From a virus: DNA of 43,765 nucleotides. Numbering within the stretch: the stretch's first letter is position 1; each line of letters starts with the position of its first letter. The DNA lies in IMG/VR virus record IMGVR_UViG_3300030114_000021, positions 1 to 43,765 of that record. One strand, 5' to 3'. The notes below the pieces were generated by a model. It saw only the letters and a program-made list of their open reading frames with translations. It searched no databases and had not been told where the DNA came from. The position numbers and the translations under genes are program-made. Shown here piece after piece: positions 8,829 to 43,144 of the stretch.

Positions 8829-9104
8829 TCACGATTTATTCAAATCAATATCTGTCCATTTAGATCCGTCTGGGTGTGGGCATTTAGCTGTGGCAAGCCA
8901 CCACTTAAAACGCGTGCAACCACAACCCGGAGCAGTACACTCACCAAGCCACATATTTCCGCGTCGGTTATAATAGTCACATGCTTCGCAAGCTGTACTA
9001 CGGGCATTCAATTGATTTTCGTCGACAACAGGGAATCCCTTCCTAGCCCATACGCGCAGTTCACGTTGTAGATTCCAAGCCTTTAGCGCAATTGATGGGT
9101 TCAC
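8829..9104 (-). CDS. Cys-rich putative zinc-binding protein (91 aa)
   Basis: 91 residues with an N-terminal helix (SIALKAWNLQRELRVWARKG) and a dense cysteine cluster: CEAC, then C, CGC and a last C in AKCPHP. The spacing fits one or two structural zinc sites. The start overlaps the RCC1-like gene stop as a 4-base ATGA, so the two are coupled. Similar short Cys-rich proteins occur near phage structural genes; function unknown. Confidence 0.72.
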   Translation of the reverse strand: MNPSIALKAWNLQRELRVWARKGFPVVDENQLNARSTACEACDYYNRRGNMWLGECTAPGCGCTRFKWWLATAKCPHPDGSKWTDIDLNKS

Positions 9105-10237
9105 GGCTTAATTGCGATTACAGCGGTTTCATTTATACACGCACTATCCCAGTCAAAATCTACCCCGATCTGCATCGGTGCATAGACTACAAAGTCTCCA
9201 GATCCGCTCCCGTTTTGACCATAAGTATTAACCCCCCAGAACCAGATCGTTCCGTCGGACTTTAATCCCAGTGCTCCTACGGAATTATTTAGAGATATTG
9301 CTGCCCAATCGGAATCCGATCCGATCTGCATCGGTGCGTGGACTAATAAATCCGCAGCGCCACTTCCGTTGCCTCCCCAAGAATTAGTCCCCCAGAACCA
9401 AATCGTTCCGTCGGACTTTAGTCCTATTACTCCTCCGACATCGTTTATTGATATATAAACCCAATCCACACCAAAACCTATTTGTGTTGGTACGTATATA
9501 ACGGAACTACTAACACCGCTACCATCCTGCCCCCTAAAATTACCACCCCAGAACCAAATCGTTCCGTCTGATTTTAATCCCATTGCTCCCGCAAAAGGGC
9601 CTAGAGATATTGTTGCCCAATCGGAATCCGATCCGATCTGCATCGGTGCATAAATTAATCCGTCTGCAACGCCATTCCCATTTTGACCATAATAATTAGT
9701 TCCCCAAAACCATATCGTTCCATCGGATTTTAGTCCCAGTGCTCCTATGTTATCACCAAGTGATATCGCTACCCAATCTGAGTCTGTTCCTATCTGCGTA
9801 GGTGTGTAAATACCGCCGCCTCCAGATCCTCTCCCATCTTGTCCGCAATCACTAGCACCCCAAAACCAGATCGTTCCATCGGACTTTAGTCCTATTACTC
9901 CTCCGAAATTATTTAGAGATATCGCTGCCCAATCGGAATCCGATCCGATCTGCATCGGTGCATAAATTAATCCGTCTGCAACGCCATTCCCATTTTGACC
10001 GCTAAAATTCTTCCCCCAGAACCAGATCGTTCCATCTGATTTAATTCCAATTGCCCCTCCAAAAGCACCTACTAGTATAGAGGTCCAATCAGAATCCGAA
10101 CCGATCTGAGTAGGAATATATGTTACTCCATCACCTACTCCGCTTCCGTTTTGACCATCAAAATTTCTACCCCAGTACCACGCCTTAAACCCTACACTGC
10201 AACAGCTGCATGGCCCGGTAAACGAAATAGAACTCAT
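9101..10237 (-). CDS. RCC1-like seven-repeat beta-propeller protein
   Basis: 378 residues made of seven tandem repeats of about 52 residues, each with W-G-x-N-x-x-G-Q-x-G, PxQIG, SDSDW and GLKSDGTIWFWG elements. Seven matches the blade count of a complete RCC1-type propeller. The fold is inferred from the repeat pattern; RCC1-like propellers usually mediate binding. The N-terminus has a CSCC cluster and no signal peptide. DNA-level repeats are near identical (ATCCGATCTGCATCGGTG-like blocks recur), so recent expansion or recombination is likely. Neighbours look structural, so a receptor-binding or virion-surface role is plausible. It is not likely to be a nucleotide exchange factor here. Confidence 0.82.
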   Translation of the reverse strand: MSSISFTGPCSCCSVGFKAWYWGRNFDGQNGSGVGDGVTYIPTQIGSDSDWTSILVGAFGGAIGIKSDGTIWFWGKNFSGQNGNGVADGLIYAPMQIGSDSDWAAISLNNFGGVIGLKSDGTIWFWGASDCGQDGRGSGGGGIYTPTQIGTDSDWVAISLGDNIGALGLKSDGTIWFWGTNYYGQNGNGVADGLIYAPMQIGSDSDWATISLGPFAGAMGLKSDGTIWFWGGNFRGQDGSGVSSSVIYVPTQIGFGVDWVYISINDVGGVIGLKSDGTIWFWGTNSWGGNGSGAADLLVHAPMQIGSDSDWAAISLNNSVGALGLKSDGTIWFWGVNTYGQNGSGSGDFVVYAPMQIGVDFDWDSACINETAVIAIKP

Positions 10238-39860: not shown

Positions 39861-40952
39861 ATGCATATACTCACACTAGAAGACACGGTAGATCTCGGTT
39901 CAAAGCAGGTAATTAAACCAGATAGCTACCTCATTGACGACATAAACGCAGCCCACCTACTTGTCCTCGCAAGCCGAGGAACGATGAATAAACTGGCTAC
40001 TATTCGTACTCTAGACGAAACACAAGATTGGAACAATAAGCGCATCCTTGTTATGCGTGCAGGTGGGTTTGGTGATCTTGTTTTGTTAACCCCGGTGCTC
40101 CGAGAAATTAAGCGCCGATGGCCATCCTGCTATATCGCCGTTTCTACGATGGCCACATACGCCCAGGTTATCTCTAACCTGCCATACGTTGACCACATAT
40201 CTGAATATCCTATTCAAATCGATAACGCCAATACATTTGACGCATGGGTCTTTCTTGAAAACGCGATCGAGAGAAACCCGCGCGCCGAAGAAGTTCATAT
40301 GACCGAATTATTCGGTGAGATAGCCGGAATAAGCTCGATAGAAGATATTAAACCTGACTACAAGGTCAAAGCCACAGAGGCTATCTGGGCAAATGAAGCT
40401 TACCCCCGTGTTGAGGGCACACGCCGATGCTGCATCCAGATCGGCACATCAGCACTCTGCCGAACTTATCCTCGTCCTAAGCTCGGTGAAGTCTGCACTG
40501 CACTAATCCAAAAAGGCTGGGAAGTATTTTTACTTGGAGCTAATGGGGAAATCCGGGTAGATAAGATGCCTCACAATATGCGTAACCTTGCCGATGCCGA
40601 TCTTACGCTTCGGCAGTCTGCAGCGGTTATGAATAACGCTGATGTATTTCTTGGTAGCGATTCGGCACTGCTCCATATTGCTGGAGCATTAGCAGTACCA
40701 GCTGTTGGTCTCTACGGACCATTCCCATGGTTCCTACGCACAAAGCACTGCCCAACGACCGTAGCGATTTCAGGAACGGGTGCATGCGCGCCGTGTTTCC
40801 ATCACGTTAACTCTGCGCGTCGTAATCATTTCCCGGATTACTGCCCATCAAAGAGCAAGGGGATATGCCAGGTGCTTGAGGATATATCACCAGCACGCAT
40901 CGTCACAAAGCTTGAATCGATAGCGCGTAACCAAATTGATATGATCCAATAA
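39861..40952 (+). CDS. GT9-family glycosyltransferase (heptosyltransferase-like)
   Basis: 363 residues. ILVMRAGGFGDLVLLTPVLR near 60-80 and FLGSDSALLHIAGALAVPAV near 263-283 are the paired motifs of glycosyltransferase family 9 (ADP-heptose:LPS heptosyltransferases). YPRPKLGEVCTALIQKGWEV lies between. A Cys-rich C-terminal stretch (GACAPCFHHVN, YCPSKSKGICQV) is also common in this family. On a phage it could alter host LPS to block superinfection. Directly follows motif copy 7. The first ~55 residues are an extra unassigned segment. Confidence 0.88.
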   Translation: MHILTLEDTVDLGSKQVIKPDSYLIDDINAAHLLVLASRGTMNKLATIRTLDETQDWNNKRILVMRAGGFGDLVLLTPVLREIKRRWPSCYIAVSTMATYAQVISNLPYVDHISEYPIQIDNANTFDAWVFLENAIERNPRAEEVHMTELFGEIAGISSIEDIKPDYKVKATEAIWANEAYPRVEGTRRCCIQIGTSALCRTYPRPKLGEVCTALIQKGWEVFLLGANGEIRVDKMPHNMRNLADADLTLRQSAAVMNNADVFLGSDSALLHIAGALAVPAVGLYGPFPWFLRTKHCPTTVAISGTGACAPCFHHVNSARRNHFPDYCPSKSKGICQVLEDISPARIVTKLESIARNQIDMIQ

Positions 40953-42342: not shown

Positions 42343-43083
42343 ATGAATGAGCTGGCTCTTTTCGCAGCAACTGGTGGCGGACTACTTGGTGGAAAACTCT
42401 GTGGATTCACCACTCGCTGCGCTGTTGAAATCAACCCCTTCCGAGCTAGCGTACTGCTCGCACGGCAACGCGACGGTTTACTCCCACACTTCCCAATCTG
42501 GGACAACGTGTGCACGTTTGACGGCGTACCATGGCGAGGAATTATTAGGGTGGTATCTGGCGGGTTTCCGTGCCCAGACATCGCCTCTGGCGGACCAGGC
42601 ACGGGAATCTTCGGAACCCGATCCGGCCTCGCATTTGAAATGCTCAGAATCATTGGTGAGGTTCGACCTGCAATCGGACTGTTTGAAAATAGCCCACTGC
42701 TCACTCGCCGCGGTCTCGAATACATCCTTTTTGCTCTGGCCCGCATGGGGTACGATGCGCAATGGGGAGTGCTGGGGGCGAACCAAGCCGGTGCTTCCCA
42801 CGGAAGAAAAAGGGCATGGGTTCTGGCATCCGACCCCAACCAAAAGCGACCATCAAGGGGCAACGACAAACGCTCTAATCAGGAAGGATGGAAGGACGCG
42901 GACCTGTCAGCTGAGATACTGGCTGCAAGACCGTTCCCGACGAACGGGAACGACATACCCGCACCCCACGTTTTTGGAGGCAGTGATGGGATGGCCAATG
43001 GGCTGGAGCGGGTTGCAGCCTGTGGAGACGGTCAAGTACCAGCAGTGGTGGCGCTCGCATGGCATCTTCTTTCAAATGAATAA
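42343..43083 (+). CDS. DNA cytosine-5 methyltransferase (frame 1 of overlapping pair)
   Basis: 246 residues. C5-methyltransferase motifs in order: I LALFAATGGGLLGG (residues 4-17), IV VVSGGFPCPDIASGG with catalytic Cys77, VI IGLFENSPLL (ENS where ENV is usual), VIII GASHGRKRAWVLA (about 150-162), and a C-terminal IX/X-like GMANGLERVAACGDGQVPAV (about 216-235). The stretch available for target recognition is only about 50 residues, so it is short for the family and may be specialised. Its start ATG is four bases before the ATG of the second frame. It would modify phage or host DNA. Motif order and the intact Cys support activity. Confidence 0.82.
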   Translation: MNELALFAATGGGLLGGKLCGFTTRCAVEINPFRASVLLARQRDGLLPHFPIWDNVCTFDGVPWRGIIRVVSGGFPCPDIASGGPGTGIFGTRSGLAFEMLRIIGEVRPAIGLFENSPLLTRRGLEYILFALARMGYDAQWGVLGANQAGASHGRKRAWVLASDPNQKRPSRGNDKRSNQEGWKDADLSAEILAARPFPTNGNDIPAPHVFGGSDGMANGLERVAACGDGQVPAVVALAWHLLSNE

Positions 43084-43144
43084 CCAACCAACACGCTCCG
43101 CAGAGGAGTCCAACATCCCAGCTCAGCCACGCCCGCGTGCGTGA
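42347..43144 (+). CDS. Overlapping +1-frame phage protein on the methyltransferase gene
   Basis: 265 residues, overlapping the methyltransferase over its whole length in another frame. It matches a phage protein type I know: FRAQTSPLADQARESSEPDP, then LLWPAWGTMRNGECWGR, GHGFWHPTPTKSD and MGWPMGWSGLQPVETVKYQQ with WRSHG. The order WPRxGxMRNGxC, WPTPT, MGWPxGWTxL is typical of proteins found next to or within phage cytosine methyltransferase loci. Starts at the second ATG of ATGAATGAG. Function unknown. Expression is not shown; confidence reflects conservation of the motif order. Confidence 0.65.
   Translation: MSWLFSQQLVADYLVENSVDSPLAALLKSTPSELAYCSHGNATVYSHTSQSGTTCARLTAYHGEELLGWYLAGFRAQTSPLADQARESSEPDPASHLKCSESLVRFDLQSDCLKIAHCSLAAVSNTSFLLWPAWGTMRNGECWGRTKPVLPTEEKGHGFWHPTPTKSDHQGATTNALIRKDGRTRTCQLRYWLQDRSRRTGTTYPHPTFLEAVMGWPMGWSGLQPVETVKYQQWWRSHGIFFQMNNQPTRSAEESNIPAQPRPRA

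Follow-up and report, generated by a model that had tools for sequence, protein, structure and literature searches.

Near its end, the window (the whole stretch of 43,765 nt that was analysed, IMG/VR virus record IMGVR_UViG_3300030114_000021) carries a locus which very likely encodes a two-polypeptide C5-cytosine DNA methyltransferase with almost completely overlapping subunit genes. Judged from their sequences, the two products, referred to as alpha and beta, are most likely the large and the small domain of one enzyme, with a motif split similar to that of M.EcoHK31I. The observations on which this is based are the conservation of both frames, selection on the second frame, a conserved dual start, and an allocation of motifs to the two chains that is exclusive and complementary.

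Alpha would represent the large domain, with SAM binding, the catalytic Cys, motifs I-VIII, and a C-terminal motif X helix. Beta would represent the small domain, with a target-recognition-like (TRD-like) region and motif IX, plus an extra N-terminal half. In the scheme that we infer for translation, association, DNA specificity, and biological role (anti-restriction), ribosomes would initiate at both start codons of AUGAAUG so that both chains are made from one mRNA; alpha and beta would associate to form the active enzyme; and this would modify the phage DNA, presumably as a protection from restriction by the host. An earlier note on this DNA had claimed an overprinted gene pair, and the identity of beta, most likely the small-domain chain, is new relative to that claim. 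Because beta holds the motif IX which is lacking in alpha, an unexplained overprint becomes a probable two-subunit enzyme.

The locus and the products of its two frames

The sequence ATGAATGAG at position 42343 opens two overlapping frames in the window (Table 1), in agreement with the two ATGs four bases apart described in the earlier note. The overlap amounts to 737 nt, close to the roughly 740 bases over which both frames had been reported as open, and beta ends past the end of alpha (43144 vs. 43083). Alpha matches PF00145 (3.9e-18) and phrog_363 (5.9e-38), which, together with the alignments, bears out its description as a C5-methyltransferase with Cys77 in GGFPCPDIA and a C-terminal GDGQVP element. 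Beta had been taken for a recognisable phage protein, and it does match phrog_26627 (8e-12) and phrog_1008 (2.5e-9). A Pfam search with beta gave no match, and a PDB sequence search revealed no relative.

The same virus record also encodes phage portal, RecT, helicase, and DnaB-like genes. Upstream of the methyltransferase, a glycosyltransferase family 9 (heptosyltransferase) domain is encoded at positions 39861-40952 (PF01075, 1.3e-16). An RCC1-repeat protein (regulator of chromosome condensation type; PF00415, 1.3e-15) is encoded on the minus strand at 9101-10237 of this phage record.

Table 1. Features of the methyltransferase locus (positions refer to the window)
Feature	Position	Strand	Remarks
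Double start ATGAATG	42343..42349	+	the ATGs of alpha and beta are separated by 4 nt
alpha, frame 1	42343..43083	+	246 aa; predicted large domain of a C5-methyltransferase, with motifs I-VIII and X
alpha motif I, FAATGGG	42361..42381	+	alignments A2/A6
alpha motif IV, GGFPCPDIA	42559..42585	+	catalytic Cys77; alignments
alpha motif VI, ENS	42685..42693	+	E115 and N116 invariant in alignments
alpha motif VIII, GASHGRKRAWVLA	42790..42828	+	alignments
alpha motif X, GDGQVP	43024..43041	+	alignments
beta, frame 2 (+1 relative to alpha)	42347..43144	+	265 aa; TRD-like region and motif IX
beta N-terminal extension	42347..42526	+	~60 codons; missing or interrupted by stops in distant homologs
beta WHPTPT (WPTPT) element	42824..42841	+	TRD-like region; T163 nearly invariant in A3/A5
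beta motif IX, TFLEAVMGWPMGWS	42968..43009	+	M214 and W220 invariant in alignment A3

Motifs I, IV (with the catalytic Cys), VI, VIII, and X occur in this order in alpha. Alpha does not combine these with motif IX and a TRD in one chain, motif IX being encoded in the +1 frame instead. By a PDB profile match, alpha could be aligned to the large domain of M.HhaI (residues 15-178), and the best structural match of its AF2 model is M.HaeIII, over 168 columns. In this model, residues 176-228, located between motifs VIII and X, have low confidence. By sequence, alpha is a predicted large domain devoid of a small domain. The triplet around the catalytic Cys reads PCP in the alpha of the window; 42 of 44 relatives have PCQ, and P is found in no other. 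With PCP for PCQ, this copy of alpha could be weak or dead. FAATGGG and GDGQVP of the window's alpha are likewise off-consensus.

Beta is predicted to supply the motif IX missing from alpha (family consensus LNPxWVEWLMGWPxGWT) as well as the TRD-like region. The latter has a homologous, in-frame counterpart in single-chain phage methyltransferases; for the N-terminal half of beta, C5-methyltransferases offer no known counterpart. AF2 modelling of beta alone gave a poor result (pLDDT 58, pTM 0.22), with only residues 211-220, which belong to motif IX, above 80. Two positional claims of the earlier note need adjustment. The WPTPT element had been assigned to the bases that encode alpha motif VIII; five bases are indeed shared, but most of the element is located just downstream (42824-42841 vs. 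42790-42828). The MGWPxGW element had been assigned to motif IX/X of frame 1; alpha is devoid of motif IX, and MGWPMGWS (42986-43009) overlaps the alpha sequence DGMANGLERV just before motif X.

Selection on the second frame and conservation of the double start

The +1 frame is devoid of internal stops in 36 of 36 homologous loci (viral contigs, phages, and plasmids), over about 200-300 codons. Under synonymous shuffling, which leaves the frame-1 protein and its codon usage unchanged, about 152 stops would be expected in total (the sum of the per-locus means, 2-8 per locus). The +2 frame has 6-25 stops in each of the 36 loci, as expected. For the window gene alone, a stop-free +1 frame is obtained with P = 0.0045 (2000 synonymous-codon shuffles; null 3.8 stops). 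In the beta frame, homologs are more similar to each other than shuffled pairs are (mean z 3.7-7.6 per bin, for alpha identities of 27-70%), and z is above that of the +2 frame in every identity bin. Part of the beta conservation is dictated by alpha motifs (for example, GGFPCQDIS in its +1 reading gives FPARTS), and shuffled controls therefore matter.

At alpha first codon positions, the ratio of beta-changing to beta-silent transversions (NN/NS) is 0.21 (0.18-0.25), compared to 0.65 (0.46-0.85) in the +2 control, which is itself below 1 so that the claim is limited to the difference between beta and control. Constraint on beta is strongest from alpha codon 120 onwards (NN/NS 0.13-0.15). It is also seen in codons 10-60 (0.40 vs. 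2.39 in the control). For alpha codons 60-120, no reduction of the ratio relative to the +2 control is seen. Four-fold sites show no contrast in their divergence because third positions of alpha codons always coincide with second positions of beta codons. Taken across the homologs, frame 2 is open beyond chance and beta is under purifying selection. The fully overprinted pair of the earlier note is thus supported, and there is excess constraint on the nonsynonymous sites of frame 2. No close homolog was found in which frame 2 is broken while frame 1 is intact; +1 stops are confined to more divergent loci (about 30-40% identity), where most of them fall within the first ~40 codons or at the C-terminus. 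A chance open frame is rejected on the basis of the synonymous shuffles, the NN/NS ratios, and the start codons described below.

The built-in dual start is conserved: the distance from the alpha start position to the beta start is exactly 4 nt in 72 of 74 viral loci and in 56 of 63 scored genome loci. Among 133 distinct loci, the beta start codon is ATG in 117 and GTG in 8. It is better conserved than that of alpha (ATG 61, GTG 34, TTG 14, CTG 3), whose position holds no start codon at all in 21 loci (TTA, CTT, CTA, CTC); for several of these, alpha can start a few codons upstream. Where the second codon of alpha specifies Asn, it is AAT in 113 loci and AAC in one. This codon must be AAT because AAT yields the ATG of beta. 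Over whole alpha genes, Asn is encoded by AAC 768 times and by AAT 595 times; the bias at codon 2 has a binomial probability of 1e-39, a value which takes no account of phylogeny. An SD-like motif is present in 112 of 139 loci, with a mode of 8 nt before the beta start, corresponding to 4 nt before the alpha start, a spacing that suits the beta start better than the alpha start. Upstream of the window's own start pair no SD-like motif was found, and the same applies to several other genes of this phage.

Motif allocation, relatives, and known systems

A profile of frame-2 proteins, which contained no frame-1 information, returned 160 loci (80 viral and 80 from bacterial genomes). Alpha is encoded exactly one frame away in all of them (offset +1), so that the two genes invariably overlap in different frames, and stand-alone beta was not encountered. 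By pattern, motif IX occurs in beta in 156 of the 160 loci and in alpha in none; the remaining four have variant copies of motif IX or, in L132, a frameshifted end. Motif X is located at the end of alpha in most loci. It is absent from alpha and found in beta, after motif IX, in at least five loci (L025, L028, L035, L092, L211) which lie apart on the alpha tree. L132 was rejected as a case of motif X in beta: its beta ORF enters an alpha-like C-terminus, is devoid of motif IX, and looks frameshifted.

Single-chain methyltransferases which share the catalytic domain with the window are encoded by Mycobacterium phage Silvy (gp53) and Propionibacterium phage PFR1. Their TRD and motif IX are homologous to the C-terminus of beta and lie in the same frame as motifs VIII and X, which flank them (E values 7.5e-8 for Silvy and 2e-4 for PFR1). 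All motifs are thus contained in one frame and one polypeptide, whereas two frames are used in the window. Given that the C-terminus of beta is in frame in these relatives, and that motif X occurs in the beta frame at five scattered loci, the two frames most likely encode domains of one enzyme. Mycobacterium phage VohminGhazi (L221:1414-2413) has two adjacent genes annotated as "DNA methylase", with overlapping frames, which resemble the two parts of one split enzyme, motifs I-VIII being in one gene and IX-X in the other. A similar double "DNA methylase" annotation is seen in several related mycobacteriophage records. More distant homologs (Mycobacterium phage Nitzel, Bacteroides phages, and Synechococcus phage S-H1) have stops in the first ~40 codons of the +1 frame, with the rest of beta kept. 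That beta reaches as far as the alpha start is thus probably a derived trait of the clade to which the window belongs.

A +1 ORF was also seen in single-chain C5-methyltransferases from Streptococcus and Lactococcus phages (L217:1562-1990, 143 codons; L220:1430-1924, 165 codons; shuffle P 0.0008 and <0.0002). These enzymes carry motif IX in frame, and their +1 ORF is devoid of it. The ORF matches the middle region of beta (about 1e-10), its C-terminus differs (SLSDILEENVDEKYFLS), and ORFs of this type are matched by 208 phage records. The subunit model leaves the +1 ORF of these Firmicutes phage enzymes unexplained, and the middle part of beta may have a second role or may be a relic.

In M.EcoHK31I, too, the two ORFs overlap and are read in different frames; M.EaeI resembles it. 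The beta subunit of M.EcoHK31I has about 176 aa and begins inside alpha; the beta of the window is different, having 265 aa, starting 4 nt after alpha, and passing its end. Two-subunit C5-methyltransferases (M.AquI, M.EcoHK31I) are described as exceptions (PMC3404938). For M.EcoHK31I (YGGCCR; Lee, Kam and Shaw 1995), motifs I-VIII and X are attributed to alpha and motif IX to beta, both being needed, and the predicted TRD is placed in alpha (PMC3404938). The window resembles M.EcoHK31I, as described there, in having motifs I-VIII and X in alpha and motif IX in beta, and may differ in the location of the TRD, since the TRD-like region homologous to that of single-chain enzymes belongs to beta. 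A division of the enzyme after motif VIII and before the TRD, which leaves the motif X helix on the large domain, corresponds to the two structural domains (PMC5944983). In M.AquI (CYCGRG), a natural two-subunit enzyme, motifs I-VIII are in alpha, and the distal variable region and motifs IX-X are in beta. The same allocation is found in the five loci with motif X in beta and in phage VohminGhazi. Unlike M.AquI, the window and most of its relatives hold motif X in alpha, and the overlap is nearly complete.

A comparable double start, AUGGAUG, with AUGs 4 nt apart that form one initiation site, is known from rnpA-rpmH of Thermus thermophilus (cited in PMC9841429). While both systems have overlapping genes that start from AUGs at this distance, the rnpA-rpmH products are unrelated proteins and the small gene is nested, whereas the window has two probable subunits which overlap by 737 nt. 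A description of such an overlap in phage methyltransferases was not found among the open-access papers that were searched.

Alternative explanations and consequences for annotation

Alpha might be the only protein made, with the open frame 2 as a by-product of alpha motifs and codon usage. It is true that alpha forces part of the beta motif conservation (GGFPCQDIS to FPARTS), that the P value from shuffling the single window gene is not astronomically small, and that some GC-rich relatives (L216, L219) have long +1 frames by chance. However, we give this explanation very little credence in view of the stop counts (0 vs. ~152 over 36 loci), NN/NS ratios well under the +2 control, the 113:1 preference for AAT at codon 2, a beta start which is better kept than that of alpha, the lack of motif IX from alpha everywhere, and the movement of motif X into the beta frame. 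Programmed ribosomal frameshifting, by which alpha motifs I-VIII would be fused to the C-terminus of beta while the beta start is unused, we consider improbable. Beta has a conserved start of its own, preceded by SD-like motifs at a suitable distance, and its first 60 codons are under constraint. In most loci a fusion would drop motif X, which alpha has kept, and the alpha ends differ among the loci with motif X in beta, so that there is no shared shift site. What frameshifting would account for is the position of motif IX, in the +1 frame after motif VIII; moreover, the fusion product would hold motifs I-X in order in the five loci with motif X in beta, and single-chain relatives with the fused layout exist.

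Beta could also be a separate protein (a regulator, an inhibitor, or a counter-defence factor) which overlaps a complete or degenerate methyltransferase. The beta-like +1 ORFs devoid of motif IX in the single-chain Firmicutes phage enzymes would fit such a function, as would the N-terminal half of beta, but we regard it as unlikely, since beta is accompanied by alpha in 160 of 160 loci and holds exactly the motif that is absent from alpha. In addition, its C-terminus is homologous to the in-frame TRD/IX region of single-chain enzymes, and motif X has been exchanged between the frames.

Under the two-subunit interpretation, a broader picture can be drawn, which we consider likely. The locus would belong to a large phage-borne class of C5-methyltransferases with the large and small domains as separate chains, encoded in fully overlapping frames behind one double start. 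The choice of initiation at AUGxAUG would set the stoichiometry of the chains, and motif X would have hopped between frames several times, the gene boundary being fluid. The overprinted split form was found in at least 100 viral contigs, in 80 bacterial genome contigs, and in cultured phages with Salmonella, Klebsiella, Pseudomonas, Acinetobacter, Vibrio, Microcystis, Mycobacterium, Bacteroides, and Paenibacillus as hosts. The annotated records that were examined give one gene in nearly every case; the arrangement is retained in hundreds of phages and prophages, with its second gene almost never annotated. If the broader picture is true, hundreds of "single-gene" phage Dcm annotations are devoid of an essential subunit. 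If a "DNA cytosine methyltransferase" of this kind were cloned with codon optimisation, beta would be lost, and the enzyme could be falsely reported as inactive. Loci of this class may serve as a test case for methods that detect overlapping genes and for ideas on initiation choice.

Four prophage or MAG loci (L139, L172, L186, L190) have a truncated alpha frame and an intact beta frame; these may represent sequencing errors, pseudogenes, or further re-allocations of motifs.
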